Source of the DNA: Patellaria atrata CBS 101060
Taxonomy: Eukaryota; Ascomycota; Dothideomycetes; Patellariales; Patellariaceae
Direction: 5' to 3'
Assembly: GCA_010093705.1 (NCBI GenBank)
Contig: MU006100.1
Span: 633,024-697,023, forward strand
Length of the DNA: 64,000 nucleotides
Part shown: piece after piece, positions 359 through 51,300 of the stretch
Layout of the letters: the number at the start of each line of letters is the position of its first letter
Position numbering within the stretch: position 1 is the stretch's first letter
Translations under genes and position numbers: made by a program
The notes under the pieces: model-generated
Seen by the model: the letters and a program-made list of their open reading frames with translations, nothing else
Told to the model about the DNA's origin: nothing
Databases searched by the model: none

Positions 359-1882
<1,524 letters not shown>

Positions 1883-20045: not shown

Positions 20046-20867
20046 ATGCGCTGCTCAATCACTGCCATTGCGCTGGCCGCTCTTGCCATCGGCCAAGCCG
20101 CTGCTGGTCCTTTCAGGCATGCCCAACTCCACAGGAGAAAGATCACGATGCCGGAGAATATTCAGTATGTTATATCGCACTAATATTGAGAGCAGAACAC
20201 TAACAGGTTTATTAGATACGCCGAAAAGCGTTCTCTTCTGAGCGCCGTTGATGAGGCCAACCTTATCGGTAAGCTTCAGTTGAAGCAGCTTGGTGTTAAC
20301 GCTGTATCAAAGTGCGCACACTCCTGGATCGGCAAGGACGGCCCCTATGTCAATGAGGTCGTCAATGAGTCTGGCGAAGATCTCACGGTCGTTGTCTGGG
20401 GTCCTATGGGTTCCTGGGTCAATGCTGTTCAACCTCAGATCACCATCTCCCTCGCCAACGGTACTAGCACCCACATCTCTTTTGCCTCTGGTGCTATCGG
20501 CGCATTATCTGCCGTATATCCAGATACCACCAATGTCATGGGTCAGCTTTACAACACCTGGATCGAATTCACCTTTGCGCCTATGGGTGTTGTTGATGTC
20601 TCTCGCGAAGTCAACATGAACGGACATGTAATGTCAATCGAGGGCCCTGACTGCGTATCCGACATGGACACCTGTGTTTTCAAGTGCAGCGTTGATCCTG
20701 CCACTGGTGTTGCTCCCGAGACCTGCTTAGAGCCTTATGAACTCGTCAACTGCGAGAATGGCTCTCAACCCGGTGCTACGAAGGGTCTTCACTTTGGTGC
20801 TGAGACTGGTGGCTGTGGCTGGCTTTTCAAGGAATCTGCCAAGTTCAGGACCGTCTTCGGTGCATGA
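20046..20867 (+). CDS. Secreted protein resembling the Asp f 4 allergen family
   Basis: Two exons (20046-20164 and 20216-20867; intron GTATGT to TTATTAG) give 256 residues. A signal peptide is clear: MRCSITAIALAALAIGQAAA. A basic EKR site near residue 42 could be a Kex2 cleavage point. The mature part has DLTVVVWGPMGSWVNAVQPQ, ITISLANGTSTHISFASGA, WIEFTFA and a Cys-bearing C-terminal region (CVSDMDTCVFKC). The pattern 'TVV.W...; ITISL..G....ISF..GA.GA..' resembles fungal Asp f 4-like secreted proteins of unknown biochemical role; this is inference from memory of the family. A strong AACACCAAA-ATG start context and TATA-like element suggest high expression. It is isolated between gene-poor regions. 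Confidence 0.75.
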
Positions 20868-23951: not shown

Positions 23952-25466
23952 TCAACGCACGCTACTAGAACCCAATGATTTCTTCGCGAAATTCCATACG
24001 TCAACTGCACATTCATAAAGCGACTTTTCGGCCTTCCAGTTCAGCTCAGTCTCAGCTCGTTTTACTTCAGCAATGCAGAAGCCAACATCTCCTGGGCGTC
24101 TACCAACTTCTTGGACGGGTACTTCCATCGAAGATGCCCTTTGTAGGCAATCTATGACTTCGCGAACAGTATGGCCTTTCCCGGTCCCTTCAAACAGGAC
24201 GTTAGTGCTTGAATAAGGACTCGATTAACAAGCATACTCACCAAGATTGAACGTTCGGAAAGGATCGGAGATTTTTCCGGACGCAGCAGCAGCGAGCGCT
24301 GCGATGTGCCCTCGGGCTAGATCAACGACATGGATGAAGTCACGGACCGCTGTACCATCTGATGTGTTCCAGTCTGTTCCGAAAATGCTTAAGACCGGCA
24401 TTTCCCCAAGCAGGACTTTCGTCACGACAGGAACCAAGTTAGTTGGCTTTTGTCTAGGATCTTCCCCTAGTAGACCAGATTCATGGCTACCGACCTGTGC
24501 TGAAATTAGCGCTCTGAAATCTCTCGAGGGGAGTTGATCACTTACTGGATTGAAATATCTCAAAGCAGTTATCTTCCATGTTGGATCTGAATAGGCAATA
24601 TCTGAAAGAATACACTCGCCCATAAACTTTGTTCGCCCGTACGGTGATGTTAGTCCAAAAGTTCCAGGTATTGCCTTTCGTTCCTCTCCATCATGATCAA
24701 AATAGGATTCTGGGGAATGAACGCAATGTTCCTCCTTCAAAGGGATAGACTTGTTTGCCATGGATCCATACACAGTCGCTGAGGATGAAAATACAAAGTT
24801 CTTGACTCCGAACTCGTTCAAGAGATCAAGAAAGTTGACTAAGCCGCAGAGGTTGTTCTGGTAGTAAGGGATTGGTTCTCGGATACTGTTCTCCACGGAC
24901 TTGAAAGCAGCGAAATGGATCACACCGGTGATTCGACATATGCGTTGTCTGCTCATGGATTCAACGGATGGACTATTGCAGCAACTGTTACGGACAAGTC
25001 GAGGCCGAGTTGGACCCGCCTTTTCACATACGCAGTTCCATGGATTCACGTATGTCGTATATCTCGAGAGGATTTTCCGCATCATGGCACTCCGGTAGTC
25101 GAATGAGTAGAAATGAAGCGCTGGCATTTGTTCTCCAATTCGCTGAAAGTAGTTCTCCGCGAGCAACTTGAGCCTGTCAAAGACATTTTGGAAGGAGTTG
25201 CTGAGATCGTCTACTATGATAACGTTGTATCCTTCTTTTAGTAACTCCAGGACCGTATGGGAGCCGATGTACCCAAGACCGCCGACAACTAGAATGTATC
25301 GGTTTCGATCAACAGCAAGATCAAGAGGATTTTCTTCGATGTCATCGTCGAAGAGCACCGATACATCAGTATCGGGTGTGTTGATCGGATCAGTGGAGAC
25401 AGGGGTTGCCAACGATGAGACAGAAGAGGACGGGGATAGTGCCCCAAATTCGACAAGATCACTCAT
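23952..25466 (-). CDS. uge3: UDP-glucose/UDP-GlcNAc 4-epimerase of GAG cluster (Uge3-like)
   Basis: NAD-dependent epimerase that interconverts UDP-Glc/UDP-Gal and, in Uge3 enzymes, UDP-GlcNAc/UDP-GalNAc, supplying both sugars for galactosaminogalactan. Three exons (25466-24546, 24494-24242, 24187-23952) encode 469 residues. After a Ser/Thr-rich N-terminal extension of about 57 residues comes the Rossmann motif VVGGLGYIGSH, then VIHFAAFKSVE, SSSATVYG, the catalytic SPYGRTK (Tyr about 276), ALRYFNPVGSHESGLLGED and DGTAVRDFIHV. Introns of 51 and 54 bases are GT-AG. The start is the first true ATG (MSDLVEFGALSP); the frame is open upstream but only with TTG. Residues about 140-177 form an insertion with several Cys that has no in-phase intron to remove it. 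It is divergent from sph3 with about 580 bases between. Confidence 0.93.
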
Positions 25467-26048
25467 GATTTGCAGAGCCTCCAAGTGATTGCCAATGTTA
25501 GTCAAGATGCACGAGAAACACGTCTTTATACACTTTCCGTGATCAAACCCCTTATATCATCATCTTCAATTTGGCAGAGCGAAATTTCTGAAATGCCCTG
25601 TTCCGCCCAAATTCAGTCCCGTTAAATCAACCCATACTCAACCGGCTAGTCAAACTTCAGTTCTCAAAAGGGTTTCATACATGCTATGCGGGCCCAAAAT
25701 TCTGGATCATACTCTCGAAGGTCTTCGCTGGGGCCGGATCCTTGCACACTGTATGGAAATTTCGGAAATCATCTTGCATAACACGCGTTCGTCCAACGTG
25801 CGAATTAATAAGCCTGGCCTGCATTCGCTGCCCGAAAAAACATCTCTTTTATATTCTGCAATGTGGGATTCATGTAACTCAAATTTTCACTCATATTCAA
25901 GTCCGATCTTGGCTGTGTGTATTTTGTTGAGAGATCGCTTCGCGTCAGACTTTGTTCCTCCGTTCTCGCCCCGTTTTTAGACCATTCGCGCTGTGATTTT
26001 ATTGAAAGATACGCCTACTTGGGCGGAAATATTATCTGGATCTGTAAA
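25467..26048. promoter_or_regulatory. Shared divergent promoter region of uge3 and sph3
   Basis: The start codons of uge3 (minus) and sph3 (plus) face away from each other across about 580 bases, so both promoters lie here. I recognise no specific operator. The frame of sph3 is open back to about 25914 without an ATG. Confidence 0.6.
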
Positions 26049-27021
26049 ATGTCAGTAATACTACCTCTCTATGTTTACCCTAGTCCTGGGGCGTGGGATC
26101 CCCTCTATCAAGCGTAAGATAGTCTCCAATCATCTCCAGGTTGCATAACGAGTCTCTGCTAATCAGCCACAGTGCTTCAACATACCCTGATGTCGATTTC
26201 ACCGTTGTCGTCAACCCTCACAGTGGGCCTGGAGATTCATCGCTTCCAGATCCGTTTTATCTGACTGAAATTCCCAAACTTAATCAGCACAACAACATCC
26301 AAGCACTGGGTTATGTTGCTGTCGATTACGGAACAAAAGACATCGATGATATTCTTGCTGAAATTGACACCTATGGTGGCTGGGCGGCTGCGGATTCCGC
26401 CTTAGCTATGAAGGGCATCTTCTTAGACGAGACGCCTAACAAACCAAACATTGAGCATGGCGAATATATGCAGAGAATCCAAAAAGCCGTGCAGAGCTGT
26501 AGTGGCTTGGCTGGTGATTTCATTGGTCAGTCAAAGTACAAAAAAACCGTTCCGTTATTTTTTCAGTTGTAGACGGGGGGGTTCAGCGGCGTCTCGAGAA
26601 CCGCAAAACACCCTAAACGTCTATATTCTCATCGATCAGTAACGTATCCTTGCGATTTGAAGCGGAGTACTGACTCTTGTCTCTGACAGTACATAATCCT
26701 GGTTCAATACCGATTTACTCCAAGGTCCAGGAGACAAAAATTGAATTCGCCGACTCAGCAAACGTTACAGTCATCTTTGAGAATACGTTCGATGCCTGGC
26801 TTGACAAAAACTCATACACGGCGCTAAGAGGTCTGCCTCATGCAAAACCTACACTTGGCGTTCTCTTACATTCCGTCCCAAATATGACCCCGGAGCTGCT
26901 CGGATGGGTAGTAGATCAACTCCACGACATCGCCGGCTACATTTTCATTACATCTTTGGCCGACAACTACTACTCCAAGTTTGGCCCCAGTTTCCTAGAC
27001 TTTGTCAAAGCCATGGCGTGA
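26049..27021 (+). CDS. sph3: Spherulin-4 family GH135 glycoside hydrolase (Sph3-like)
   Basis: GH135 enzymes hydrolyse N-acetylgalactosamine-rich stretches of galactosaminogalactan and are needed for its synthesis. Exons 26049-26113, 26173-26525 and 26690-27021 join in phase to 249 residues. Landmarks: LPLYVYPSPGAWDPLYQA at the first barrel strand, VVVNPHSGPG, GYVAVDYGTKD, the catalytic pair in GIFLDETPN (Asp107-Glu108) and a second acidic site in VIFENTFD (Glu170). The first intron (59 bases) has a GCTAATC branch site before CCACAG. Oddly, the protein as modelled begins right at the barrel and has neither signal peptide nor membrane anchor; an upstream exon may be missing, but I could not find one. 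It converges with ega3. Confidence 0.9.
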
Positions 27022-28050
27022 TCTGGGCAAAACCTTGCGTTTTCTTATTCACCTCCTCATTATAACGGATAGATGGGGTAAATAGACGCTGTGTCCCCAT
27101 TGTATATACGATTTATGCACACTTTATTCGTGCGAAAAAGTTGAAAGGTCAGCCTTGTTAGACATATCCCTGTTCGGTACTTTGTTCAAGAGAAAGGTCA
27201 CTCATCATTCAATTTCTCGCAAGGGTTCGGCACTTTGAAGGGGCAAAACTAGCTCATTGTAAACTGTGGAGAAAAACGGAGTCTGAACCTTACCTTATTC
27301 GACGGAAACGTTAGGAACGTGGCGGAATGCAACTATAAAAACAAGCAATTTTGATCACCATCAACCCTGGCTCTCCCCGCATTCTTGGCTACGATCGATC
27401 TGTCGCTGCTTTATCACTTAACCCAAATTACTTTTATATGATTTTCGCTTGGCAATATTCTCCGGAAACTATTCATCCAGCTTTGCAGCTAGACTGACAC
27501 CTCTTCAAACCTACCAGTTGCTCTCGGCAGTCCATGAGCGGTATTCGATCTTAATCAACTGGAAACGGACCAGAGCCCCCGTTTACATCACCCAGCAAAG
27601 AGCCGCGTATGCGTGGTCACCTCTTCAGGTTTCCCCAACACCATCCACCGGCGAATGTGGTACGGCTCGGTGCAATCTCGAGTTCAATTGGGACGCGCAA
27701 TCAACTATATACAGAAGAATGAGAAAAAACCCACTGCTTCTCCAACTCTCCGACTTCCGGAAACCGCCATACTGGAAAGCAATCACGTAAAGGAAAGGGC
27801 TGAGAAGCACTCTCACCATACATTCTCCACGTGTTTCTACAAGCGGTTCGGACAAGTACAAGCTTCGTGGCGCTTTGGTTTTTTTTGTTCAGTCGAGTTC
27901 TCATCACATCTAACCAGCATATATTATTCCCATGCGAGTCACTGGAGGCCTGGATCCACCATAACAACATCAACCGTTCGGTTGACTAGGTGTATTGAAC
28001 CTTTTCCATTAAAATTATCTTACAAAGTATCAAGATTGTCTTTCTATTCT
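27022..28050. other. Convergent intergenic region between sph3 and ega3
   Basis: About 1 kb holding the two 3' UTRs. A plus-strand frame at 27613-28059 (148 codons, first codon GTG-like) overlaps the ega3 end and resembles nothing known; I treat it as chance. Confidence 0.45.
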
Positions 28051-29113
28051 TCAATCTGAATTTGGAGTGTCCAGTGCGGTTTCTGCAATTGAACCATCGC
28101 AAAACTGTACCCAGCCGTCCAGATCCATATTCTTGAGAACGGTACTGAAACCTTGCTCATATTCCGCATTGCCGGCACTTTGACAGAGCTCTGAGCGCAC
28201 GTTTGACGCCACATTTGGTACGTCTTCGGGGTATTCAATGTGGAAAACCGGCTTACCTGCCGTGATGAATGGAGTAAAATCTTCACACTCATCATACTCG
28301 GCGCATTGCTCGTTAACTGAGAAATGAGTAATATTGAGAACGTTCTCGATGATATTTAGCGCGTTCTTCAGCCCAATGGATAGACCGTGGTCGGCAGCTT
28401 CCTTAGCGAGGAACCGCATAAAGTCGATTGAGTCTTCAGCTGTGAGATTGAGACCATTTTCATTTTGCTGCGAGCAGGTTTAGCTTTAGGTAGGCCCTAG
28501 CGACCCTGAGGCTCTGACTTACATATCCGTCCACGTTGTCGGGATCGATCGCGTCACATCTTTTTGAACCGGCCAGGGCGATTCGCTTCTTCATAATGCT
28601 TCGAACATTTTCGCTCCCTAGTTTTAGCCACATTTCTCCCGGCCATCCATCCAGTTCAAGGCCCAAGTCATCCTCCGCGAAGTCGTCCGAGTCGGGTCTG
28701 TTGGGCTCATATGAACCCGCGGAGAAGTAGCAGATGACCTTCTTGTCGAGTCTATGTAGAGTGTCGATAATCTCTTGCGAATTGTCGTATAGATCAATGT
28801 CGTAAATTGACACATCTGGATCGACGGACGTCGCATCTGGAGAAAGGTCGAGCGGGTTGCTCAGTATGATTTGCCAAGTCGAGTTGACTTTCGGCTGCCA
28901 TAGAGTCCCAGGAGGAGAGGTTGAAGTTGGAAATGGTCCGGTAGGCGACGGCGAGGACTCGCCATCAGAGTCTTTGCCAACTGCGAGCCCGACCCCCAAT
29001 CCCACCGCAAGTCCAACGACTACGACCACAGGCACCAGAATCAGTGTCACCCTTTTGCATAGCGACTGCCGACCCCACCAACTCAGCTGAGACTTGCGCT
29101 CCATGTCTCTCAT
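28051..29113 (-). CDS. ega3: Membrane-anchored GH114 endo-alpha-1,4-galactosaminidase (Ega3-like)
   Basis: GH114 enzymes cleave alpha-1,4-galactosamine; Ega3 trims deacetylated galactosaminogalactan at the cell surface. Two exons (29113-28523 and 28467-28051; intron GTAAGT to CTCGCAG) give 335 residues. A short cytosolic basic segment (RKSQLSWWGRQSLCKR) precedes a Gly/Val-rich type II membrane anchor (LILVPVVVVVGLAVGLGVGL), then a Ser/Pro/Thr linker and the hydrolase. Family motifs: STWQIILSN, DIDLYD, KVICYFSAGSYE, KRCDAIDPDNVDGY (the DPDNVDGY signature with the catalytic Asp), GLSIGLKNA and VFHIEYPED. A second in-frame ATG three codons later is an alternative start. It is transcribed in the same direction as agd3, with about 750 bases between. 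Confidence 0.93.
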
Positions 29114-29862
29114 GCCACCTTGGCGATGCAGAACGGAATGAAAAGAAAGGTTTTAAGGGGAGGTCCAAGGGCCTATTTCGAAAGGAAGTTAAGCATTACA
29201 GCAAATATTCGCGCCGTGAGACGCTTTGTAGTTCTATACGAAGCTATATCCTTCCCCTTTTCGTATCTTAAGCTAAGCCTCCTAGAGCGGACGGCGCTGA
29301 AGGCTTATTAAAGAAGCGTTTCGACGTTCGTGCAGAGGCGTAGAACGTCGAGATTCCCGCTAGAAATTCCTCTCGTTCCTTTTAACCAGGATCCAGCCGC
29401 ACTATAAATTAGTTTTGAGTTGGCGACTAGGCGGAGGAGTTGGCGCATGCTTGGTGCATCCCGGATCATATCACGATCCCTGCATTGATGTTCTGACAGC
29501 TATAACTCTTCCCGGCACGGACCGGCCGGTTGGTCGAGGCACGAACATGCGCTAGCGAGTACAATATATAGTGGTATGACAGGTACCTATACAACTACAC
29601 AAGGGCGAAAAGTCTGGCTATTACCAGATGTGCAACGTCAAGACTGATCTTCTACCACGATCACCCGTCGTGATCTCCTATTATGGCCTGACATCGCCTA
29701 GTTCTATTTATGCCCCGGTTTTTGGCCAGAAAAATTTTCTGCCATGCAACTTTTTGACCCAAGTCATGCAGGTGTTTGCGAATTTTGACCAGATACAGAA
29801 AGAATCCATGCTACAGTGAAGAAAGATGCGGAAATAACAAATGCGAGGACCCTGAAACCCGC
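29114..29862. other. Intergenic region between agd3 and ega3
   Basis: About 750 bases with the ega3 promoter and agd3 3' UTR. I see no extra gene between the two. Confidence 0.5.
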
Positions 29863-32106
29863 CTATGCAGAGACAGAAATAGGAGTATCGAAAGCATAAT
29901 TATATGCAGCACCGTCCATGTTGACCCATAGAGTTGGAATGTCATGACCAACTTGTTCGACAGTTGAGCCGTCGGTCGAGGAAGGGAGTTTTGGCACCGT
30001 GACTGGGATGGGTGTAGAGCACTGGTCATTATCACCTGCGCTAACTTCGAAGCCGATAATCTTCGTTCTGTCCTCTGAAATGTCGTATTTGAGACGGGGG
30101 TTGCATTGATCGCGAGTCATGCGGTTGATCCAAGCCTTGACGATATCGTCGTGCTTCAGAGTAATCATTGGCCAATCGACAAGTCGGATCATTTCTTGAA
30201 CCACGACCTCAGTCCAAGATTGAAGAAGAGAGTACCGTCCAGATTTGCCGTTAATTGTTGTTCTGGGAACGTCATGAACGCGCATGTTTGCCTGATGGAA
30301 CATGAACGGGTCCCAATGTAGACCAAGCAAATGCCTGGTGTTAGTCGAGCGAGCATCGTTGAGAAGATCGGTAAAGGTACCCTTTCCGCCAGACGTGTCT
30401 ATCCACTCTATTTAGGAATTAGATAAGCTCATTCCTCGCTTCTTCAAATTTTGACGTACCTTGTGTTGTACAATCTGGAAGATCACAGTTATAGAACATC
30501 GTCGTCGCCCAACGACCGATTATATACAAACCTTCATATCCATTTTGTTCCACAGTAGTAATTAACGGCCACCACTCGTTATCCTAATGGTTGTCAGTTC
30601 TCATATCAAGGGTTGCAGACAAAGGTATATACTTACCGGATTACGGATTGCAGGGCGAGTATTATCTCCAACGACGTATTTGATCCCGCCCTCAACCCAG
30701 GCACGAATTGCATCACCATTATGAAGACCTGTGATTCCTGGGGGAATGAGACCTTCAGGCGAGAAGAGTTTGGCTTCTGATATGCCAGTATTTGCTAGCC
30801 ACTGCTGGTTCCAGGTAATTTCCTTGTAGGTATCATCGAAAGTTGCGTTATTAAGAACTTCGTGGGTGAATGTGTGAGAAATATGAGCGAATGCGTTCAA
30901 GTTATTCTTGTCCGCAAACCAATTTCCCAAATCATCTAATTCCAAACATTCGGATTCCCACATGTATTCCTCTGGAGTTGCTGGCCAAATATCCTCTCCG
31001 GTTCCCAGAGGCTTTTTGAACTCCAGAGGAGTATCAATCTGTTCAGGATAATCGATACCCTCAGGAGGATCACAGTATCGGTAACGGTCAAGATCAGATG
31101 CGGTTTCAATTTGGCCGTTACCATTATGGCCTATCTCAATGATGAACTTTGATCCACTTGGCATCCGCTTATTGATATCTTTTTGCCACGTTACATGAGC
31201 ATCCAAGTCCTCAGGCACAATCCGGAAATCCAAATCCTTTGGTTTATACATAGGCGTCGCCAAGAACATGTCATCGACCTGTGTACTCAGATAAAGGCGT
31301 CGGAACCCAAGATATAAGCCTCTGGTCATCCATTGAACCCAGGCGTGAGCCAGGAAGTTAGAGGTGGCAGACCAATCTGTCGCAAACGGCAAGAACCAGA
31401 CCATCTGCTGACGGCCTTTGATACTATTGATGACGGCGGCAGTAGACACAGGATAACCATCACCAGCTGCGAATTGTGCGATTTCCCATGCCATACTAGG
31501 GTCTGAGATTTTAGCAGGATTGTGATAAAGACCCGTCGTGTCCATTCCGGCACTGGGTCCTCTAAAGGATGAATTAAGTCAGTACAGAGTGCTATGGATA
31601 TCAATAACGTGAGCTTACGTCTTCAGATTGGCTGTCTTGAAGCTGGTGTCGTTGGAGATGCTGATTTGTTGATTCTCGCTGGTGCCGCCCAAAGCGGTAA
31701 CTCCGAACTCTGTAGTTGGCCATACCCCCCATCTCACCATTCTCACACCAAAGTGAGTCTGATAGGAGAACATCTGTCGCCATTGAGGTTGAGTTAGAGC
31801 ACTTGTGCTGTAATCCTCATATTGATACGTCACATCCGCTATGATGACGATACCACCATAATTTCCAGATTCAGCGGTCGAGTTCAGCGTAGGAAGCTGC
31901 ACGCCCTCCTTGGGCACAATTAAGATTTCGTATGGTATGCCATACCCTCTCAAAGGTGACCAAGCACTATATGCCGAGGCTTCATCAGGAGATATGATTA
32001 GAACAGTGCTGTCCACTGTGACTGCGGCTTCTACTGCACCCAACCAACTCAGCAGTACTGCATACGCCCCGATGGCAAGCAGGAGAGGCCGTGAAGGGAA
32101 AAACAT
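29863..32106 (-). CDS. agd3: Secreted galactosaminogalactan deacetylase (Agd3-like, CE18)
   Basis: Metal-dependent deacetylase that removes N-acetyl groups from GalNAc in the exported polymer, making it cationic and adhesive. Four exons (32106-31619, 31561-30637, 30583-30460, 30407-29863) sum to 693 residues, ended by TAG. A signal peptide is clear (MFFPSRPLLLAIGAYAVLLS...AVEA). The N-terminal domain has TVLIISPDEA and GIPYEILIVP; the NodB-like domain has the paired Asp motif YLSTQVDDMFL (about residues 259-260), KFIIEIGHNGNG and the metal-site histidines in FAHISHTFTHE (about 389, 392, 396); later YNCDLPDC and LGLHWDPFMFHQANM. The start is the first ATG; the frame is open 12 codons further but only from TTG. 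All introns are GT-AG. Divergent from gt4c. Confidence 0.94.
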
Positions 32107-33128
32107 CGCGGAAAGGGTTAAGTGTTGATTAATAGCATGCAAAACGAAAGGAGGGAGGCAATCCTCTTAAAGAAAGTCACATCAATGTATAGAACGAATG
32201 ACTTAAAGGCGCTTTTACTCTGCAATCATTGCAGTCAATCCCTAATGACGAGAGAGAATATTGAAAGACACATCTCGACACGCGCACAGTGAATTTTCTT
32301 TCCTGGAACTGTTGTCAGTACACGCGGCGCTCTATTCCCGCAGGGAGGATCCTGTTCTAGATGCAAAATCCAATGATATGCCGGTAGATGTCCCTTTCGC
32401 GGAGCATTTCTGGGGAATTGTAGAGTATTGCACGCCTTACCTCGCTGTGGGGCGGCAGACATGGGAGCACCCATAACTGGTAATGATTATGCTGCACCTA
32501 TATTGTATATTGAGGTACAAACAGGGGAGCTGTTCGATGTTGCATGTCGATATGAAGGTTTATTGATTGGACCTGCGGCTAAAGGACGTTTTCTTAAAGT
32601 TTGATGAAACGAGAAGAGAACAGTGCTGACATCTACGCGCATCAGAACTAAAGCGGCGCGGGCCGAGTGTTCCTCCCCACCTCACCTCCTCCTTGCTCCC
32701 TTGTATGTTGCTCTCGCCTTGACTTGATTATTGTCAATGAATAACCTTAGTAGTAGTACAGTTTGCCATTGCACCGACATACTGAACCTAATTGAGACGC
32801 GACCCCAAGCGATATGGCTCAAGCTCTCGCTACGGCAGCTTCAATGCTACATGTGCACGAGGGAATCCGGCTCCAGGGCTCCGAAGGGTGTCAAAGGCCG
32901 ACAGTATTATTCCAGAAATGATTTTTTGCTAGCCCGCGATCAGCAAAGCTCACACTGAGTATGCGCCGTCATGTGTTGCTCTGCTGTGCGATGTTGTTTC
33001 TCTCCTTGATCTTGCCTCGTTGTTGAAGACTCCAACTTGAGGATGGTTGGCATCTTTTGGGTTTTCCCCTTCTTTTCTTAACTCTCATTTAGAGGACCGT
33101 CTCTTAGGAATATTGCTTGTGGTCCTCT
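32107..33128. promoter_or_regulatory. Shared divergent promoter region of agd3 and gt4c
   Basis: About 1 kb between the start codons of agd3 (minus) and gt4c (plus). Short frames on both strands lack motifs, so I take the whole stretch as bidirectional promoter and leaders. Co-regulation of the deacetylase and synthase from this one region is inferred. Confidence 0.6.
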
Positions 33129-36100
33129 ATGGCGGAAATACTGGGAATCACCGCGTTTAGCCATGGAAGTATCATCAACTCCTGGTGGAACGTGGTTCTG
33201 ATAGCCATACTCGGAGCTTGCGTGCTCTTTGGACTCGCTGCAATATTCTGGAGAATCGTAAAGTTATTCAAGAGGTTTAATAAGGTATGTTGGCATCTTA
33301 TACATCTCTGGGACGGCTGCTCTAGATGTTTTCTGCTTGATAATTCCCAAATACCTCATTCGTTCATCCTTATCAGTGGTACCCTCTAATTGCTCTGCAG
33401 AAGAACAATACTTCTTCGGCTCTGGTTCATACTGCTTGCGAGCAATTCACATGTCCCTACTTACCTCGAAGCTCCAACACTCATTCAACTCTTAAACCCT
33501 CCTCATTTGGCGTCTATCTTGGCCCATTCTCTTATCATCTTACGGAGCTAGAACTTAGGCTTTTTTCTCAATGGAAAGTCTTAGTATTAGATCCATACCA
33601 GCAGAATGTTGTCCACGTTGTCGAAGAACGCCTTCGAAAAGAACCACTTCGGGTCATTCTACGATTTGATATAAGCGTACTACTTGAATCGGCCTTCGGA
33701 TCAAAAGAAGTAAAACCATTGGAAGCTATTAAAACCGTGGTAGAGGAGATCTGGAGAACAATAATCAGAGTACACTGTGACAATACCACTATAGGCGTCC
33801 TTGTTGCTGGATGGACTTCAATGCCGTTGCTCAATGCTATTACGGCTGTGCTCCGGCAGAGTAGCCTTGAGGTATACCTTGAGATCACTCCTCCCGACTT
33901 CTTAGAGATTCCCGATGCACCGGTTCTGGAGTCCTATTCAGGGGTACTGATAAGAAATGGGACAATTCTTGAAAATGGCGAACCACGTGATTATTTCACA
34001 ATGGAAAAGCTCCGTTCGACAACACGTGCGTTTGTTGGACAATCTTGCCTTCGGCCATTCTTAGTCATGATGTGGGAAGCATTAGATGACGATGTTAGCC
34101 TCTCCCATGCTGTAATGAAGAGATCTTACTCCTGGTGTAGCTATCATGGAGCTGTGACATGGATTTCATTCACAAAAGGGTTGAAGAACGTAAAATATTG
34201 CAAACCCTCGTGCGAGCCCATAGCAGCTTTCCAGTGGTTGAAAGAGAATAGGACAATGAAGGTACATGAGGTATCGAGAACAACTAAGAAGGCAAGTCAT
34301 CCTTCCATGCTCGCCCGTGGGGAGCAATCATTAACAAGTATTAGCTCGAACCTATGTCGACAGTCTCTACTGATATGTACCGAGATCTATCATTTATGTC
34401 TTCAACTATTCAGCAGCTTGTAGAGACTTCACGTCGCAGCAGTATTGAATCTACTGTTCACTCTAATTCGTCTACTCTTACCACTCAGCACTCTGACTTT
34501 TGGGAAGAAGGTGTCCTTCCTGAGGGCTTTGATATTACGTTTAGTAAATTGGACTGGACCGAAGCTGTCGAGAAGGTAGACACAGACCCGTTATCCAGCT
34601 CCTCTTCGGGTGATTCCTATACTGGCTTGGGTTGCTTTCCTGTTGGATTCCACCAAACACATGATGATTTCCAGCGCGTCCTGCAATCACAGCAGCGACT
34701 GCGTAACCTCGGTCTACTTGAGGAAATGTCTGCTCCAGAGCTGCTTAAAGCAGCCGAGGCACTGAAGAGATTCGATGATCCTGACCGTGTTGTTCCCGGT
34801 CTGAACATTCCTAAAGCTATGCGACATGCCATCAGATATCTCCGAACGCTTATGGAAGATGCCGCATCTTTGGAGGACTCATATGGGTGTATCAAGATTT
34901 TTCGTGGACTCAGCTCTGGGTTTCGAGTCCCTGGGAACGTCAATTTTTGGGGTGTCTACGAAGTGGACAGTGGGGACGGTTCCATCAGCATTTACTTATC
35001 CAAATCTGTTGCTAATACGCAACATGCTTTGCTACACACATTCATGAGCTGTAAATCCTTTGATCGGTACCAATGTTTCCGGGCAGAGTTCATTCTACAT
35101 CAACTGGAAGCTTCGAATACACAGCAACAGCTACTGCCTCCAAATATAGAACAAGATCTTAATCTCCTTTCACCAACTGACTCTCTCATTTTTCTACAAC
35201 ATATGAAATTCTCTCGCGTCAATTCCGAGTGCAAGCTACTGTCCGGTATCAATATAGTTTTGCGATACCTTCTTCTAGAAGCGCCTTCGCGAAAGCAGCT
35301 TGAAAACCTCAGTCATGTTGACTATCTCGCTCGCAAGATCTCGGAGGAGGATTTAGTTGAAACAAGATTAACATGGTACCGTCAGACTTACGAGACCTTC
35401 CTCGACCCGAGTTTATGTCTCCAGCTATTTCGGGAGGTTGACGCAAAATTTCAACAAATCCTATTCGAGCAAAACTTTGAAAGCCTTGATCAACTTACCA
35501 TGGCTTTGGAATCATTGTTGGAACACGGGACTCCAAACTGTCAGACAGACTTTTTTCTATTTTCAATTTTTTGTGCCGCTCGTAGGGCTGCATTTGAGGA
35601 AGTTTATCTTGAAGTTACGGATAGAAATCCGTTATTCAACGAATTCTCCGACCAGAGTGCGGCTTTCTCGGAGTTATTTGCTCTCGGTTCTCGCTGCGAA
35701 TCATATTTCGGGATAGTGCCGAGCGCGTTTGGCAAACTTCTTTCGGACCGCCATCGAGCTTATTACAGCGTCCCTGAACGCCAGCCCCCCTTGTGGTTAG
35801 ATAACGCGCCCTCCTTCGCATCAGTATACGCTGCCGCACAAACGGATATTGATCCTGCTCAACCTTCAATATCAATGCCTGGTTATCGACGCTTCACTTT
35901 CCTCAGCGTTTTCGCCATACCAGCGCTGATTGATATTCTGTTGCTAGTCTCGACAGGTCGCGGGCTATACCTTAGTGCTTTCATGAGCGAGGATGAACTT
36001 AGGTATGCAACATTAGCTTTGATGTTGTCTCTACTCCTATCTGGAGCGATAGGTACAGCCATATCTATTGGCGAGACATACTATCTCGTTTCCATGGCGT

Positions 36101-39100
36101 TCTCCGCTGCGAACATGTTCGTGCTAACTCGACTGATTGGCGGACTTGCTCTGACTATAGCTGGAGGCGTCATCGGATTCATTGTGATTGCTGCATTACA
36201 CTCTATACATCTCGGTGCAACATTCTTCTTCTACCTCTTCGGACTCACTTCATATTTATCAGTCCTTGCAGTTCTTGCCGGATATCAATTTCCAGGGTCA
36301 TCTTTCCTCAATGGCCGTTACATCATTATCACCCTCATACCAACGCTCCTTATTTCCCCACTAGTAACTACGTGGATCAATGGGCACGACATCATCATCT
36401 ATTTGGGTATCTTGCACATATTTGTTGCTCTCCTATTCCTGGGAACTAGGCGAATAAGTTCACGCTGGGTTACGTGGTTGAAGTCTATCAAAGCGATTAA
36501 TGACAGCCAAGTAAAAGAGTGGTACATCAAAAATAGAGCTGACAATGATGAGAAAGCATTGAACCATCTCAATGGCCCCTCAGCATTGAACCTATGTAGA
36601 GCGGAGCTATATCGTACTGTTGAAGCTGAGGGAAAGCTCCGATTCTGGCAGAAGTCGAAAGCAGATTCTTTAGTGCAAGAGTTAGCTAAGAGTTGGGAGT
36701 CAACGATATTCCTGCTGGACTGGTATTGCCGCCTTGCCGACGTGAAGCGACCTCTACCTTACAGCTCCACCTGGAACCTGGAAATACAAGTGGCGCTCGA
36801 CAGTCTTCTCCAAAACCAAAAGGGGATCCGTTTGCACAATGCTTTCATTCACTGGCGCAACGCCGGAGATGAAATTGGTTGCGGTGTCTTATACTTTTTC
36901 GTCGCGCTTCTGGATCGTTGGATTGCGCTTGTTGCTGGAGGACAACTCGTTGGTCTTTCTTTGGCGGCTAATGAGGCATTCCGTATCGCTGTAGGCTGTG
37001 GGCTCGCATATTATCTCATTGGCGCAGTCCTTCTGGATTACAACGCTGGACATCTCCATCAAATGGCTCAGCAAGCAACTCCGGTGTCTATTCCGACAAC
37101 CGACGACATTCATAAAGCAAGGGTTAATGATGCTAAATTCAAACGAAAACTCTACTGGACGACGTTGGCACGGTTTCTTCACATCCATGTATGGGCTTTG
37201 GCTCTCAGTGCTGGCCTCGTGTGGATTTTTGCTGCCATTCCGGATGCACTGATCATGTTCTTATCCTATGTAGGCGCATATACGGGTCTTTTATTCTACC
37301 AGTATAATAAAATCTTTGCCGGACCGCATGCATTGATCCCACTCTTCATGGCTTGCGTATTCGGATTTGGCTCGGGTCTTGTCCTTAGACTCGCCCTTCC
37401 AGACTGGATATGGAATGATGTCATTGCCCTTGCAATAGCAACATGGACCGCCGCATTTTTATGTTTGGCCAAAGCGAAAATTGGTTTACCTGGGAAGGAG
37501 ACCAGGAGATACAAACTTTCCTCCTCACATTTTCATGCTTACGGTGGCATTGGTACTGACCATGAGTGGAGCCAGAGTGAGCTTGAGTCATTCTACGAAA
37601 CTTTACTTTCTGGTCCCTCGCAAAACTGTTTTGGTGTCCTTTCCCAGGGCCATCCCGGAAATGAAATAAAAGAAATATTATTGTCCTGCGCTCAGAATGG
37701 GCTCTCATACCCGGCCTGTGATGCATTTCCCGAAACATCCGAGATGTTGAGAAGGATCGTGTCTCTTTGGGATGTAGGCCGTATCTCGATCAGTCTTATC
37801 TCCTTTAAGTCTATAATCAAGGCAGAGGCTGATATCCGAGCTATCAGCTCATTCCGTAACGATCACCTTCATCTTGTGATAGCTTCTGACGCCGAACAAT
37901 CGACTTTCCAGGGAATGAGTGTCAGCAGTAATTGTAGAGCTATTGCCGAAACCCTTATTCACGCTTGCGCTGAAGAAATATTTGGTATTGAGCACAACCA
38001 CGCTGTCATCGCAGAATCTCTCTTGGTTTGCGACTTTACGAGGAATGATGCTTATCAAGTGTCAGAATGTGTCAAGCGAGCTGTTCCGTTCGATTTCTCA
38101 GAGTCTAAAGTAGCGCATCTTGTGGAGTCAGCGAGGAAAGAACTCATCCACAATCTCTGTGTTGGTGTAAGAGAAACGTCTTGGAACTCCTTACCTCCCG
38201 ATATGAGGGTCTTATTCGTACAACGATGCCTGAACGACACTTGCCGGTGGACTAAAACCGCTCTCAGTTGGATCTCTGCTAATATCGAGGCTGAGGAAGG
38301 GTGCACCATCGCGACACGGCTAGCCAGATATGATCTCGGTGCCGTGCTTGCTATATCGAAGTGCAATTATCTCAAATACCAAGTGCCATTGCGCCTGGGT
38401 GAAAAGACATACCAGCAACGAACAGCAGACATCTACTATTACGACGATAAACCTCAACCATACTCTCCTAAAACATTTACACAGTTCCTTTTAAAGCAAA
38501 TGAAGGTTCCGTTTGCACGATCGTATCACTCACTGGGCACAATTGTCAAATTCTTTGCCATAGCTATTACCGCCGATCCCGAATTCCAGCGAGAGTTGGA
38601 TTACATGATATCAGAGAAACCACACTTTGTCGCTGCTCCGTCTTCTTTCCTTCTCAACTGCCTTTGGATCTATACGAGATTTGCCCAGTCTCTCGTGTTT
38701 CCATTCTTTCTGGTAAGTGAATGTCCACTTTTCATTTTTTTGATTTGAAAATATTTTGGTTTTCAGGTGCATAATTGACATGGACAACAGTTATGTGGCC
38801 GTGACGAGATTAAGACCATTCTCAGTACAATCACGGGAGCTGTGATAACGCTGAAACCAGGCCGAGTGTTGATTGACACTCTAGACAAGAAAACTACTGC
38901 CTTTATCAAGACTATTGATGAGGGTGTCAAGTTGACCTTCTATAATGGGATCGTAAAACAGGAACCGGCATGGGGCGCTACGCGTATTAGTACATTTTCC
39001 AAGGATTTACTTCTCCTTTCACGAGAAGATCTTGATGGTCATGAGGTTCAAAACAAATATATCTATGAATACTCACTGCAGCGAGAGAAGCGAATAAGTA

Positions 39101-42100
39101 CCATTGTGCGACCGGAAAACCTGAGAATTCCCATGGTTCGAAAATGCGTCGCTGGAACCCAGGAAGGTGCTGTTTTCTATTACAATAACAAAGGTCTTAT
39201 TGAATCTGGATCTTACATGCAGCACGGAAATTTGGTCCGGTTCAAATATAGATACCGCAAGAATGCCAAGTATGCAGATGAATTACTCCGAGCTGAGTTC
39301 GTTTTACCTCACATTTTCGTGAGCGTCAGCTGGTGCGCACCACCTATCAGGCATCCAGAGAAGACAGAAAGATGGATTCCACATTCTAGAGTGCATGAGG
39401 CTACCTTTGTACAAGGAGCAGACGTCTATGAAAGTACTTGGCTCTATGACCACAAATTCCATCCGACAATCACGACAAAGCTCAACGGCCAAGCCGCTGC
39501 TACCCCTGATATGATCCGCCACGATTGGCTCGGCGTATTGAAGAAACCAACATCTACTAGTTTTGTGGACGACAACCCGTTGGTGGATTTCCGATCTCTA
39601 AGTTCAAATATCGTGACCAGAACTCTTGGAAAAAACAAGAAACGAATTCCCGTGTCAACATCAACATCACGCTCTCATTTGTGGCGGGCATGGAAAACTC
39701 AGCCACACATTGACGGAGTAGTCATTAGATGGCTCGACGAGCAACTTATGAGGGGCGAGCCCCTGCTCAAACAATATTGGACTAAAAGAGATTGCGGAAA
39801 GCTTGACAAAGCTGAAGACTATCTCGCACTCCATGCTGATGCTATCATGGCCACCACTGAGCTCTCTAACGAGGTTGGTGCCTGGACACCACTCGCAATT
39901 CGAATGGGTGATCTGTCAAGCTTTGGTCAAGGCGGAGACGCTATCATATACACAAGGACTAAAACATTACAGCCGGATACTGATGACCGTTTGCATGTAA
40001 TTGCTGTAGATACCGGGACCTGGCCGAACGAAGGAGGTGGTGTATCAGCATGCCGAAGAGATCTCATAAACAACCTCCGGTCAGTTAGGTGGCATATGGT
40101 GGTCGAATCTGCGAGTGACTTTGGTATTCCGAAACATCAAACAGAAGAGAACGTCGAATCGTTGAAAGTAGTCCCACTTTGGGGTATTGATTTCATGCAT
40201 CCTCATCACGGTATCTTCACCAATAAATTAGATGGTGAAATCGACATGATGGTCAAGGATAACACCATAGAGGATATCCGCCTCAATTTCGTCCCGATAT
40301 TAACCGCCCTTGTAAGGGGCGCTCGTTCGATTAAAATGTCGAGTGCAGATATCAAACAAGCAACAAGAGCTCTCGTCAACCTAAATACCTATTTTGAAGA
40401 CTCTCGCCACTGGAAAGAAGTATGGACAAGTGATGTTGTCAAGGAAAGTTGGAGAAACCTCTGGCTTGAGGAAATACCTAATGCAAAACCTCCGTCGGAA
40501 TGGTTCGAAACCGAATGGCCAACACTTGGTCATTTTGACACAGCCCTTGATCTATGGTTCAGGTACCTCTTCATCTTTTCGGTTCCTATCCCCGAGCGGA
40601 TCCCAAGTGTTTTTCAAAGCTCACACCATAGCGTATCAGCATCCTATGGGATTGTTTGTAAAATCAAACGCAACTGTACACTCCAGGTTTGGGACCACGC
40701 CATATCTTGGAGAGAGACCAACCTCTATTTGTCTTCTGCGATGTGTACTTTGCCTCCATTCATTCGGAATGCACTTCTTGGTTTAATGCGACTTACCTCA
40801 GTACTTGTCCTCCACCATGCGGACCAAGTGCTCCCTTGTGCTGATTTTTTTAATCCCGGGTGGGAGATAGAAATTGGCAGTTCCGAGGGAACTCTTACAC
40901 ATAGAAATGTGTTTAAGAGAAAGGTGGACCCCATAGTAAATGGAATTACGGACATGCAAAAGTTTGCTCCAGTATCCGAAATCAAGACGAAGAGCCCTAC
41001 TGTCACTATGCTTTCGCATCTATGGTTAGCTAAGGACATCAAAGGAGCCCTGCTAGCGGCAGACATTATTATCAACAAATGGGGGTTCGAAGACTATACC
41101 CTTGACATCTATGGAGCACTAAATAAAGCACCGGTATACTCTTCAGAATGCCAAGAGATTATCGCTAGTAAGGGTCTAGGAGAGAAGGTCACCCTTCGGG
41201 GTACCGCAGACCCTAGCATGGTGCTTTCAAATACTGTAAGTTCCACATTCCGTAAGTGCATTACAAAATGCTAACATACATTCAAGTGGGTCTTCCTTAA
41301 CTCCTCGGTTTCTGAGGGACTGCCACTAGCTCTTGGGGAAGCTGCATTGACTGGGGCACCTGTTGTTTGTACAGACGTAGGAGCTTCGCTCAGAGTCCTA
41401 ACAGACCCCGACGACAACAGGAGATACAGTGAAGTCGTGGCACCGAATGATGCTTTGTCTCTAGCACGCGCTCAGATTAATCTTTTAGCGATGCTGGGCG
41501 AGTGGAGCAAATATGCTGATGACGACCCAACTAAACCAGCTCCTATTCTTCCAGTAGCACCAACCAAAAAAGATGTTGAGATTATCACTAAACGTATGTA
41601 CGAAAAGACAGCTCAGCGCCGTAAGCTAGGTATGATGGCAAGAAGTATTGTTCAAAAAAGCTTCAGCGGAGAGCGGTATCTGCGAGAGCATGAGCAGGTA
41701 GGATCCTCTAACTACACATTGTCTGCTGTTCGGTCTCTAACTATATGCTAGATGTTATGGATCGGAAAAGCCTGTTACGAGATGTTGGATATTCCGAAGA
41801 TCACAGCCAAACCTCTGGATCAAGTTGTAAGACCTCGGGCGACGAAGCGGAAATCAAATCAGATTGTAGACGAACAGCTTGAAAGGATGGTTCATCCACC
41901 TCGCCCAGCGTGGCTCAAGCATACATCAACGTCGACATCATTCTCAAGTGTGTACATGGATGATAGCAAATCAACGCGCGCCTCCCAGGCCTTGGGTCCG
42001 TTCTCTAGAGGTCAGTATCAAAGAGATGCATTGGTTGACCTAGAATCCGGAGTAAGTGATAGCCCCGCAAGGGCGAAGTTCAAGACTGGCCTGCTAGCAG

Positions 42101-42231
42101 GAAGAGAGATTCCGCCATCCAGAGCGTCAATTCCCATGGCGGCAAGCGGGAAAAGCAGTATGAGTATGAAGAGTGCTAAGAGCAGAGCTCCGAGCGGACT
42201 GAGTCAGGTACTCAATGCAACAGCATATTAG
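33129..42231 (+). CDS. gt4c: Giant multi-pass GT4 glycosyltransferase, galactosaminogalactan synthase (Gt4C-like)
   Basis: Predicted to polymerise and export the Gal/GalNAc chain at the plasma membrane. Six phase-0 exons (33129-33284, 33401-34291, 34345-38712, 38791-41235, 41287-41697, 41752-42231) give 2,916 residues. Order: an N-terminal membrane helix (about 20-42); a soluble region with barrel-like strands (GVYLGPFSYHLTE, VLVLDPYQ); a large membrane block (about 864-1056) and further helices (about 1192-1254 and 1292-1400); then the GT4 part, with a donor-domain loop VIAVDTGTWPNEGGGVSA near 2205, much like bacterial PelF, and the E-x7-E motif in FLNSSVSEGLPLALGEAA (about 2624-2641). The tail is Ser/Lys-rich. 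The second intron is GC-AG (GCAAGT...TATTAG), the others GT-AG. This completes the cluster with agd3, ega3, sph3 and uge3. Confidence 0.94.
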
Positions 42232-44502: not shown

Positions 44503-45503
44503 ATGATGGGAAAGTTCTCAGTGCGAGATCTTCAGCTCTCTGTCTGCACTGGCCTCCTTATGCTCATTTCCCTCCCCAGGATCAGCGCATGGGACCTAGC
44601 TCGGCTACCGTCTTGCGCCGTGAGTGAAAGTTGGCTCCTCTTGTGTTTCGAATTACTGAGAAGAAAATATCCTAGATCAAATGTGTAGAGAATACTCTCA
44701 GCACATCAGACCTTTCGTGTCGTTGTAGACGCTTTGACCGGTCCTCAATCAGGCTCCCGCCATGCGTGCAGAACAGTTGCAGCATAGAAGACTACAAGTG
44801 TATGTGAGAACTGAGAAGTAACAGAGAGCACTAAAGACCATCCCGCTGATTTTATATAGTAATTAGAAAAGTGTTACTCTCCATATGCCATTCCACCGAT
44901 TTCACCGAACCGCATTCTTCCTTGACGGGAGATATAGCTCGTGTAGAGCTGAGGGCTCCCGCCAGTTCGTCTGACACAGTTGTAGAATATCAAACTACTA
45001 TATCCGGTTCTCATACTACCTTAATAACCACCACCGCCTCCACCCTACCCTCTCAGCCCGTGGAATCTGCATCCGAAGCACCTCCGTCTAGGGGGCTTTC
45101 GGCAGGAGCTAAGGCCGGCATTGGAGTAGGCGTCTTTCTTGGCTTCATATTATGCGTAATCGTTGGAGTCCTTTTCTATTTACGAAAGATTAAAAAGAAT
45201 GGAGGTAATCGCTATATTGAGAGGTATAGGAGGAAACTGGAATCTGGAGGGCGCCGAACTGCCGGCTCAGCAAACACTGAAGTAGGGACGGCAGGCACAC
45301 AAGAGTCAAGACAATCAATAGGAAACAGTGGCTCAGATCCCGAAGCAAACGACGTGAAAAAGGCGGGCATAACAAGGACTTCCACGGAACTGGAGTCGCT
45401 CGATCAAACTAAAAATGAGTTACCTCCATCTCAGTCTCTGAAATACGAGCTGGGAACCAAAGAGACCCGCAGACTCTCGCGGATGAAGGAAGAGTTTGGT
45501 TGA
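44503..45503 (+). CDS. CFEM-domain single-pass membrane protein
   Basis: CFEM proteins are fungal cell-surface proteins; some bind haem or act in host interaction. Three exons (44503-44619, 44676-44799, 44860-45503) sum to 294 residues. A signal peptide is evident (LQLSVCTGLLMLISLPRISA) and is followed by the Cys-rich module: LPSCA, IKC, SDLSCRC, PPC, NSC and LLSIC. Only seven of the usual eight CFEM cysteines are visible; the one expected before the SD of SDLSCRC is missing. After a Ser/Thr-rich stalk (TTISGSHTTLITTTAS) comes a transmembrane helix (AGIGVGVFLGFILCVIVGVL) and a cytosolic basic, Ser-rich tail. This domain plan matches CFEM receptors rather than GPI-anchored ones. All introns are GT-AG and in phase. 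Confidence 0.85.
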
Positions 45504-48382: not shown

Positions 48383-51300
48383 CTACCAGTCCAGTCCCCC
48401 AGCTCCCCTTTCCCCTCCAGCCAGAATGTGCGCAGCTTTTCCCCTTTCGCCTTTGCCGTTTTCCAAATGACTCACATCCCGTCCCTTACGGCCCTTGAAC
48501 CCCATCCCGTTCTTTAACTTCTCATCCAGAGACTTGAATGGATCTTCAGTTTCCCCCTTCCTGACCTTCCACTTCTCCGTCCCTAGTACGCTATCCAGCT
48601 CCTCGACTGGCGGCAGCTTCACGTACACCATGCCATCCTCTCTTTCCTCGACGGGAAAGGTAGCGATATTGACCTCAGGATCATTTCCACACTTGCCGGC
48701 GTTCGGACCGCCGAGTTCGTAGTTCCTCTTGTGGAACGGACAGGAAACCCAGAGTTTGTTATTCTGTATATCGTCGCCTATGAGACCGTCCGACAAGGCA
48801 AATGCGCGTTTGTGGGGACACATCTGTTGGGTACAGTAGTACTTCCCCTTGACTTTGAAAATGGCCAATTGCGTATCGCCCCTTTTGATGGCCTGGGAGT
48901 CACCGGTAGGTAGGTCCTTGAATTTGTCTGCCTCTATGATAGGCTGCCACGATAGCTCGCTCCATTTTGTACCTCTGAAATCTTCTTTAGCGGATTCACG
49001 CGGCCAGTATGCAGGGCGCTGTTGGCCGCGGTCTTCTACGGGCTCAACGGTGTCAGAGATAGTAGTCCCGGTGTTCGCGAACTGGGAGAAGAGTTTGCGG
49101 CGTTCGGGGTCTTTGAGCACCTCTGTCCATTCGCAGAAATACGACCCTACCAAGTCTGCCATTTGCTGCTCGAGGTCGGCGCAGATGCCAAGTTTATCCT
49201 CCAGAATCACCTCCTGCAGGTACTTGATGCCGCCAGGTAGGTTCTCGATCCAGCGTGCTGTTCGTTGGAGTTTGTCAGCTGTGCGGATATAGAAGCTTAG
49301 ATAGCGGTCCAGGATCGGGACCACGTCATCTGGTGGGACATCCTTGGCAAGTAGTTCAGAGTGTTTTGGTTTCGCACCGCCGTTACCCGCAACGAAGATA
49401 TTAAATCCCTTTTCCGTAGCAATAAGGCCGAAGTCCTTATTCTGCGCCTCCGCGCACTCTCTCACGCAGCCCGAAACACCTCCCTTAATCTTATGCGGCG
49501 CACGAATACTCTTATACCGTTCCTCGAGTCGGACAGCCATACCTACACTGTCACCGATACCGAAACGGCACCATGTCGTGCCAACGCAGGATTTGACTGT
49601 GCGAAGGGATTTCGCATAGGCATGTCCGGACTCCATTCCGCCGTCGATAAGCTCTTCCCAGATGGCTAAGAGGTCCTGTTTCTTGGCGCCGAACATGTCA
49701 ATACGTTGTCCGCCGGTGATCTTAGTGTAGAGGCCATATTTCTTGGCGACGGTGCCGATGATGATGAGTTTTTCGGGTGTGATCTCGCCGCCGGCAATAC
49801 GGGGGATGACCGAAAAGGTACCGTTGCGCTGGATATTGCCTAAGAAGCGGTCGTTTGTGTCTTGAAGTCCTCTTCGAGGTGGGTCGAGGATGTGCTTGTT
49901 GCTAAGAGAAGAGACGATGGAGCCAATTGTGGGTTTGCAGGATTCGCAACCAAGGGAGTTGGGATCTTTACCACATTCTTTCATCACTTGTTCGAAGTCT
50001 TGCAGTTTCTTTACGTAGATAATGTTAAACAGATCCGCACGAGAGTATTCGAAATGAGGGCAAAGATGGTTTTTGACTTCTTGGCCCATGGAAGTCATTG
50101 TCTTGTTAAAGATGGTTTGGACGAGCGGCATACAGCCACCACAACCGGTTCCAGCCTTCGTGCACGATTTGACGTCCCCGATACTCTTACAGGTTCCGTC
50201 CTTGACAGCTTTGACGACATCGCCTTTGAGTACGTTATGACACGAGCATATTTGCGTGTCATCGTCCCTAGATGTGTCAATATACAATCCTTGAGTTAGT
50301 CTTCTTGGACTTACAGGTCATCCGCATCATCATCTCCTTTCGATGCTCCAACAATAAACTCACTCGGTGGCACCTCCAGAGCTTTCTGATTCTTCACCAT
50401 TGGAACTAATTTTACATAATCCTTCGTATCACCAATCATCATACCTCCAAGTAGATACTTCCCGTCCATGGTAAACAAATACTTCTTATACACCTGCTGG
50501 AAGGGATCCTTGTACGTCAATGCTTTCACTGGAGGTGGCACTGGACCAGAAGTCATATTCTTAATCCTATCCTTCGATTCAATGACACCCTCCTTCTTAC
50601 CTGCACCATGGCGTTTTGGTAGCTCCTTCGGTCCATCACGGTCTGCAAAGAAGTCACCGAAACTTGCTACTTCAACGCCCAGCAGTTTGAGTTTGGTGCT
50701 TAGATCTGGACGTTTGAATACCCGTGGTGAGTGCGCTTTAGCTTGTGTGAGGTTGAACGCGAGGACATCGGCCATCTCGACACCCGGAGCGATGAGACCG
50801 AATGTTTGATTTTCCCAGCTGGCGCATTCGCCGATGGCGTAGATGTCTTTGATGGAGGTTGAGAGGTCGGGATTGATGACGATGCCACCGCCTCTGTCTG
50901 CGCATTTGATGCCAGCCTTCCTTGCTAATTCATCTCGGGCTTTGATACCAATCTAATGATTTTTGAGTTGCTGTCCGAGCTGGTGGTGAAACATGTCCAC
51001 TTACTGCAAAACATATACATGAACAATCCATCTCCTCCCCATCCTCAAACACAACCCCCGTAACGTAGTTATCGGCATCGTGCTTAATCTTACCCACTCT
51101 TTTACTAAGTAGGACATCTACACCCAATGCTCTAACCTGCTCTACAACCATATTCCCCGCATCCCCATCCAACTGTCTCGACAGAACCCACCTATTCCGC
51201 TCAATAAGTTTAACAGCTCCGAAGTCTTCCAAATCCATCATTGCTTTAGCAGCCTCAAGACCTAACAGACCTCCTCCCACTACAGCACCAGTTGTACCTT

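Follow-up and report, generated by a model that had tools for sequence, protein, structure and literature searches.

A galactosaminogalactan gene cluster in Patellaria atrata with an apparently anchor-less Sph3 and a predicted one-chain synthase architecture

A 64-kb stretch (positions 633,024-697,023) of contig MU006100.1 of the wood-inhabiting ascomycete Patellaria atrata CBS 101060 (the window, analysed at its full length and numbered from its first base) contains, to judge from sequence, a complete and orthologous galactosaminogalactan (GAG) gene cluster of the kind already described in other fungi. Its five genes, uge3, sph3, ega3, agd3, and gt4c (also called gtb3), together span exactly positions 23952-42231. 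We regard it as highly probable that the cluster is complete, that it was inherited vertically, and that it encodes the pathway proposed below, in which Sph3 is most likely cytosolic. As a kit the cluster is ordinary, and what appears to go further is an Sph3 without a membrane anchor together with the predicted architecture of the synthase. The original prediction, made from the letters of the window, overlooked the apparent absence from Sph3 of the membrane anchor described for A. fumigatus Sph3, and the synthase architecture was beyond its reach.

Gene content, order, and inheritance of the cluster

Five intact GAG functions had been predicted in the window, in the order uge3-sph3-ega3-agd3-gt4c, and all five genes are indeed present with conserved catalytic residues and with spliced frames free of stop codons (5/5), joined across 13 GT...AG introns of 51-164 bases. 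The motifs named in that prediction were all found: YGRTK in Uge3, DE at 107-108 and FENTFD with E170 in Sph3, DPDNVDGY at 190 in Ega3, and VDD at 258 and HISHTFTHE at 389 in Agd3. The order, which the prediction gave as that of Aspergillus fumigatus, agrees with the locus numbers given there for uge3 (AFUA_3G07910), sph3 (07900), ega3 (07890), and gtb3 (07860) in PMC4817252, and with the description of agd3 as adjoining ega3 in PMC7229062. The word "complete" holds for gene content, and does not extend to proof that each product works where its Aspergillus counterpart does.

All five products are related by sequence to GAG proteins, with matches well outside what chance would give, and each is closely related to Aspergillus proteins (Gt4c and Uge3 as compared with A. 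fumigatus; Agd3, Ega3, and Sph3 as compared with solved structures). The deposited P. atrata proteins are 100% identical to our models, Sph3 (P0121) over the same 249 amino acids (aa), Gt4c (P0001) with 8 residues fewer at one acceptor, and Uge3 (P0175) with a deviation at the C-terminal end only. Gt4c, Uge3, and Sph3 lie together on one 792,643-bp contig of the 28.3 Mb assembly. Uge3 matched uridine diphosphate (UDP)-glucose 4-epimerases with a best E-value of 1.5e-85 and is 54-56% identical to the A. fumigatus enzyme. Its Cys429, within GDVGxC, is invariant in the aligned rows (15/15); we take it to be the position of human GALE Cys307, presumably tied to the use of UDP-N-acetylglucosamine (UDP-GlcNAc), an assignment that would suit an enzyme with both functions. 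Compared with A. fumigatus Uge3, the P. atrata protein is ~30 residues longer ahead of GVIHFAA (about 25045-24930, - strand), and among the 14 rows aligned with it, four (P0176, P0177, P0179, and P0190) have a comparable extra stretch.

Residues 31-671 of Agd3 align with structure 6nwz (E-value 2e-202), in an alignment made with a model 19 residues shorter than the final one; the counterpart of R613 falls in those 19. Identical counterparts to the catalytic or essential residues named in PMC7229062 (D377/D378, H510/H514, R613, and M666/H668) were matched by eye, with hand-counted numbering on the 6nwz alignment. Motifs CM1-CM4 of CE18 are all present, the R of CM3 included, and a signal peptide was seen by eye. 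Ega3 matched structure 6ojb (E-value 3.5e-74, obtained with a model that used a different splice acceptor from the final one), keeps DPDNVDGY and NEQC, and begins with a transmembrane (TM) helix, an anchor whose N-flank is positive. The conserved catalytic Asp and Glu motifs of GH114, whose residues are named as Asp-189/Glu-247 in PMC10485009, are present at motif level. Outside the cluster, a second GH114 gene was located at G000:C16:541675-542516 (+ strand; loci L012 and L015), where the six-frame match includes one TGA and one TAG within one piece, which may be introns.

A GAG cluster was reported in 2016 in 28 species from a survey of more than 250 genomes (PMC4817252), and the window contains the set of genes that defines membership in that work, namely a clustered glycosyltransferase, epimerase, and deacetylase with at least one hydrolase or spherulin-like gene. 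GAG from a homologous cluster has been shown or reported for Metarhizium robertsii (PMC8224951), Neurospora crassa (PMC11356417), and Verticillium dahliae (PMC13245733), and none of the 13 papers listed for P. atrata is, to judge from the listing, about GAG. The P. atrata and A. fumigatus clusters are alike in all five families, their order, and their catalytic residues, but the N-terminal membrane anchor known from A. fumigatus Sph3 is apparently missing in P. atrata. The N. crassa cluster (NCU05132-05137) has the five families in common with that of P. atrata, whereas its order differs: per PMC11356417, the synthase number adjoins that of the epimerase, and a sixth small gene sits between the epimerase and the GH135 gene.

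The search for Gt4c homologues found 276, of which 120 were listed. In a Gt4c tree (about 980 aa, 33 rows), 16 Dothideomycete rows stand on one side of a branch with support 99/99, where the classes are those we presume from the names of the rows, Patellaria and Coniosporium alone having been looked up. Because the Dothideomycete rows are united, vertical inheritance within the Dothideomycetes would be enough to account for the P. atrata cluster. The cluster appears to belong to a known kind and to have been passed on vertically, so GAG is its expected product, and a GAG-like polymer may reasonably be supposed for P. atrata.

The N-terminus of Sph3 and its relatives

P. atrata Sph3 matched structure 5c5g (E-value 2.7e-54) with the D, E, and E residues conserved. 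The catalytic residues of the A. fumigatus enzyme are D166, E167, and E222 per PMC10485009, while PMC12054363 gives Asp196/Glu222 instead; those of P. atrata are D107, E108, and E170, invariant in 25/25 aligned sequences. The protein opens with MSVILPLYVYP, right where the hydrolase domain begins, and neither a recognisable signal peptide nor a TM anchor of the A. fumigatus type was found in the 249-aa protein. A genome search for spherulin-4 retrieved three matches, all of them exons of the in-cluster sph3, and no second gene.

For the Sph3 tree, 47 of 54 homologues were used, the seven under 240 aa being excluded. P. atrata Sph3 is sister to 23 rows (support 100/97), and a hydrophobic N-terminal segment is missing throughout this clade (24/24 rows). 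A Met-Ser start within one residue of that of P. atrata is found in 22 of these 23 relatives, and the remaining one has a 12-residue hydrophilic extension. Outside the anchor-less clade, a hydrophobic segment is present in 20 rows (18 of them at 2.5 or above) and absent from three (P0135, P0142, and P0150).

This separation from the anchored group would also suit an in-cluster sph3 that is a cytosolic paralogue of other function, present by chance or as a replacement, with GAG being made without Sph3 or with this protein as a substitute. We compared the contigs of the proteins listed for Gt4c (120 rows), Sph3 (54), and Uge3 (120), each entry standing for one contig, among species with a single contig and a listed partner. 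The anchor-less spherulin-4 and the listed Gt4c or Uge3 were on different contigs in 12/12 checkable species (Zopfia, Clohesyomyces, Lindgomyces, Pyrenophora seminiperda, Delitschia, Lojkania, Decorospora, Clathrospora, Westerdykella, Polyplosphaeria, Sporormia, and Bimuria), which favours a paralogue. Furthermore, the Gt4c and Uge3 locus tags are four apart in Neocucurbitaria, Plenodomus lindquistii, Pleosporales sp. CAS-2024a, and Elasticomyces and three apart in Coniothyrium, and therefore there is room for an anchored in-cluster Sph3 in those five genomes; the three genes between the tags in four of them would leave space for another Sph3. Nevertheless, sph3 of P. atrata has uge3 and ega3 as its neighbours, which is the A. 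fumigatus arrangement, its catalytic residues are identical, and the genome search gave no second spherulin-4 gene, and we find a paralogue of other function rather doubtful. As a separate observation, the tags of Venturia effusa Gt4c (FKW77_003684, P0048) and its Uge3-like protein (FKW77_003630, P0245) are 54 apart, so its cluster may be split or its Uge3 row may be a paralogue.

Sph3 has been published as membrane-anchored (PMC8647848, PMC12054363), and in keeping with that view the P. atrata cluster could be canonical throughout, with Sph3 anchored or secreted by way of an undetected upstream exon and working outside at the Gt4c exit. Among 68 one-intron models enumerated upstream of sph3, some with a weakly hydrophobic exon do exist, but none yielded a convincing signal or TM exon, the best having a KD17 of 1.88 and poor splice sites. 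When the 594-bp upstream sequence was shuffled with its dinucleotides kept, 23 of 200 shuffles attained that value, and a value of 2.5 was reached by 3/200 shuffles and by 0/68 real models. With the deposited protein starting at the same residue and the clade relatives likewise anchor-less and alike in their Met-Ser start, we consider an undetected anchor exon unlikely, to judge from the one-intron models enumerated.

Because no recognisable targeting signal was found, P. atrata Sph3 may act in the cytosol, which we take as its most likely location. The role described in PMC12054363, with reference to Bamford 2015, is at the extracellular side of Gtb3, where Sph3 cleaves the polymer as it leaves, probably against clogging; why a GAG-cleaving enzyme is needed for GAG synthesis is called unknown or unclear in PMC8647848 and PMC7329490. 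For the alpha-1,3-glucan system, an intracellular amylase is thought to provide primers (PMC7329490), and we use the alpha-1,3-glucan synthase with its intracellular AmyG as a working analogy for a cytosolic Sph3, and not as evidence.

Predicted architecture of the Gt4c synthase

P. atrata Gt4c aligns with A. fumigatus P0097 at 47% identity over 99%. The first TM helix (TM1) is found in 98 of the 120 listed homologues and absent from 22, and its C-flank is the more positive in 92 and its N-flank in 2. The N-terminal barrel that follows has 11-13% identity to GH191/GH166/GH114 galactosaminidases, and among the 50 Foldseek rows listed GH191 is present and PelA and GH114 are absent. Matching the strands in order by eye, we did not see the Asp at strand 4 or the Glu at strand 6; strand 6 has an Asn that is invariant in 38/38 (residue 194 of the exon-2 fragment), and E169 and E/D234 are conserved instead. 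The canonical catalytic pair is apparently missing from the modelled barrel.

On the predicted structure of the membrane core, twelve membrane-spanning helices can be read (eleven by hydropathy), in agreement, as to fold only, with the 12-helix 6+6 fold of the MOP exporter superfamily. PelG was not detected on Gt4c exon 3, where no Pfam or NCBIfam family matched at E<=1, and neither PelD nor PelE had a Pfam or NCBIfam match on the exons scanned. The regions aa 348-765 (34345-35598, + strand) and aa 1392-1803 (37477-38712, + strand) likewise had no Pfam or NCBIfam match, the latter being modelled as mixed alpha/beta and then helical. At the C-terminal end, the NCBIfam PelF model matched two exons (1.3e-5 and 3e-7) and the A. 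fumigatus orthologue (1.7e-19), with scores of 24.5 and 29.9 bits on the two exons and 70.2 bits on P0097, below the equivalog cut-off of 100 bits for NF038011. By these scores the GT4 end is a distant relative of PelF and not a member.

Gt4c shares with the Pel systems of Pseudomonas and Bacillus (PelF, PelG, PelA) a PelF-like GT4, a predicted MOP-superfamily exporter fold, and glycoside hydrolase and deacetylase partners, and the product type, an alpha-1,4 polymer of N-acetylgalactosamine (GalNAc) and galactosamine (GalN), would be alike given the polymer supposed for P. atrata. In contrast to Pel, the glycosyltransferase and exporter of the fungal synthase form one chain with the barrel fused to it, and we do not claim Pel membership. 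On the models, Gt4c resembles a one-chain PelF-PelG machine more than it does the published ICA/PGA analogy. PelF being the closest NCBIfam model to the GT4 end, and Pel and GAG having linkage and sugars in common (PMC9135694), the product might be a related but distinct alpha-1,4 hexosamine polymer, e.g. a Pel-like GalN/GalNAc polymer without galactose, but the close relationship of Uge3 to an A. fumigatus enzyme described as bifunctional and the orthology of the entire cluster make this quite improbable.

Table 1. Genes of the P. atrata GAG cluster and predicted domains of Gt4c, with positions in the window.
Feature	Description	Position	Strand	Remarks
uge3	UDP-Glc/UDP-GlcNAc 4-epimerase, 469 aa, 3 exons	23952-25466; exons 25466-24546, 24494-24242, 24187-23952	-	YGRTK motif, Cys429
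uge3/sph3 intergenic region	582 bp, divergent	25467-26048	.	
sph3	GH135-type (spherulin-4) hydrolase, 249 aa, 3 exons	26049-27021; exons 26049-26113, 26173-26525, 26690-27021	+	
ega3	GH114 endo-alpha-1,4-galactosaminidase, 335 aa, 2 exons	28051-29113; exons 29113-28523, 28467-28051	-	
agd3	CE18 deacetylase, CBM87-type N-terminal domain, 693 aa, 4 exons	29863-32106; exons 32106-31619, 31561-30637, 30583-30460, 30407-29863	-	
gt4c/gtb3	GAG synthase, 2914 aa, 6 exons	33129-42231; exons 33129-33284, 33377-34261, 34345-38712, 38791-41235, 41287-41697, 41752-42231	+	
Gt4c TM1	aa 22-40	33192-33248	+	positive flank on C-terminal side
Gt4c N-terminal (beta/alpha)8 barrel	about aa 88-347	33482-34261	+	structurally nearest GH191/GH166
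Gt4c membrane core	aa 864-1391	35893-37476	+	predicted MOP (MATE/Wzx/MurJ) fold
Gt4c GT4 domain	about aa 2210-2760	40009-41766	+	PelF-like; DTGTWPNEGGG, SEGLPLALGEA

Proposed pathway, surroundings of the cluster, and implications

In the pathway we propose, Uge3 would produce UDP-Gal and UDP-GalNAc, and the PelF-like GT4 end of Gt4c would polymerise their sugars in the cytosol. The MOP-fold core of Gt4c would itself move the chain across the plasma membrane, after which secreted Agd3 would deacetylate it partly to give a cationic adhesin, and membrane-anchored Ega3 would trim deacetylated stretches outside. Sph3 would cut the acetylated chain, and in P. atrata it would probably do so in the cytosol, on the nascent chain or on oligosaccharides that could serve as primers, and not at the exit side. 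More tentatively, we suggest that GAG synthesis in this lineage involves a cytosolic Sph3 acting on nascent chain or primers beside an inactive galactosaminidase-like barrel that is part of the synthase and lies on the same side, and that the synthase, a single polypeptide, is a PelF-PelG machine of the Pel type whose core is a MOP exporter.

Several points weigh against these proposals. The upstream-exon enumeration covered one-intron models only. The positive-inside rule, itself weak evidence, gives no clear answer for the anchored Sph3 group: among its TM flanks (n=19) the N-flank is more positive in 6, the C-flank in 8, and the two are equal in 5, and therefore the rule does not fix the orientation of anchored Sph3. 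N-glycosylation sequons are almost as frequent in anchor-less Sph3 (mean 3.73, n=22) as in anchored Sph3 (4.44, n=18), with 2 in P. atrata. Model confidence for the membrane core is moderate (pLDDT 75.7, pTM 0.59, 1038 aa). The hydropathy count gives eleven segments rather than twelve, and V. dahliae Gtb is predicted with 11 TM domains in total (PMC13245733), and thus the parity that places the barrel and the glycosyltransferase on one side is insecure.

Elsewhere in the window, nitrate assimilation genes lie near the cluster, with a nitrite reductase at 48386-51559 (- strand; NIR_SIR, Rieske, Fer2_BFD, and Pyr_redox_2 domains per Pfam) and nitrate reductase pieces at 53043-54892 (- strand; Mo-co dimerisation, cytochrome b5, FAD, and NAD domains per Pfam). 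An open frame at 44850-45500 (+ strand) encodes, by eye, a Ser/Thr-rich stretch followed by one strong TM helix, has no Pfam family at 1e-3, and looks like a wall-stress sensor. Upstream of the cluster is an Allergen Asp f 4-like domain at 20190-20864 (+ strand; Pfam PF25312, 5.9e-7), and at 1018-1539 (+ strand) there is a protein kinase exon (Pfam Pkinase, 5.8e-36) with a TGY activation loop, by eye resembling a Hog1-type mitogen-activated protein kinase.

With a natural and apparently anchor-less in-cluster Sph3, and no second gene of that kind found in the genome, the question of why GAG synthesis needs an enzyme that cleaves GAG becomes testable through the side of the membrane on which Sph3 works. 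The predicted synthase architecture supplies a concrete export model, by way of the MOP fold, for a little-characterised GAG synthase, and would extend the link between a fungal wall polymer and the bacterial Pel machine past their common chemistry. If a cytosolic Sph3 and a one-chain Pel-type synthase both prove true, both the ICA/PGA analogy for Gtb3 and the published role of Sph3 in preventing clogging at the exit would need revising for fungi generally.

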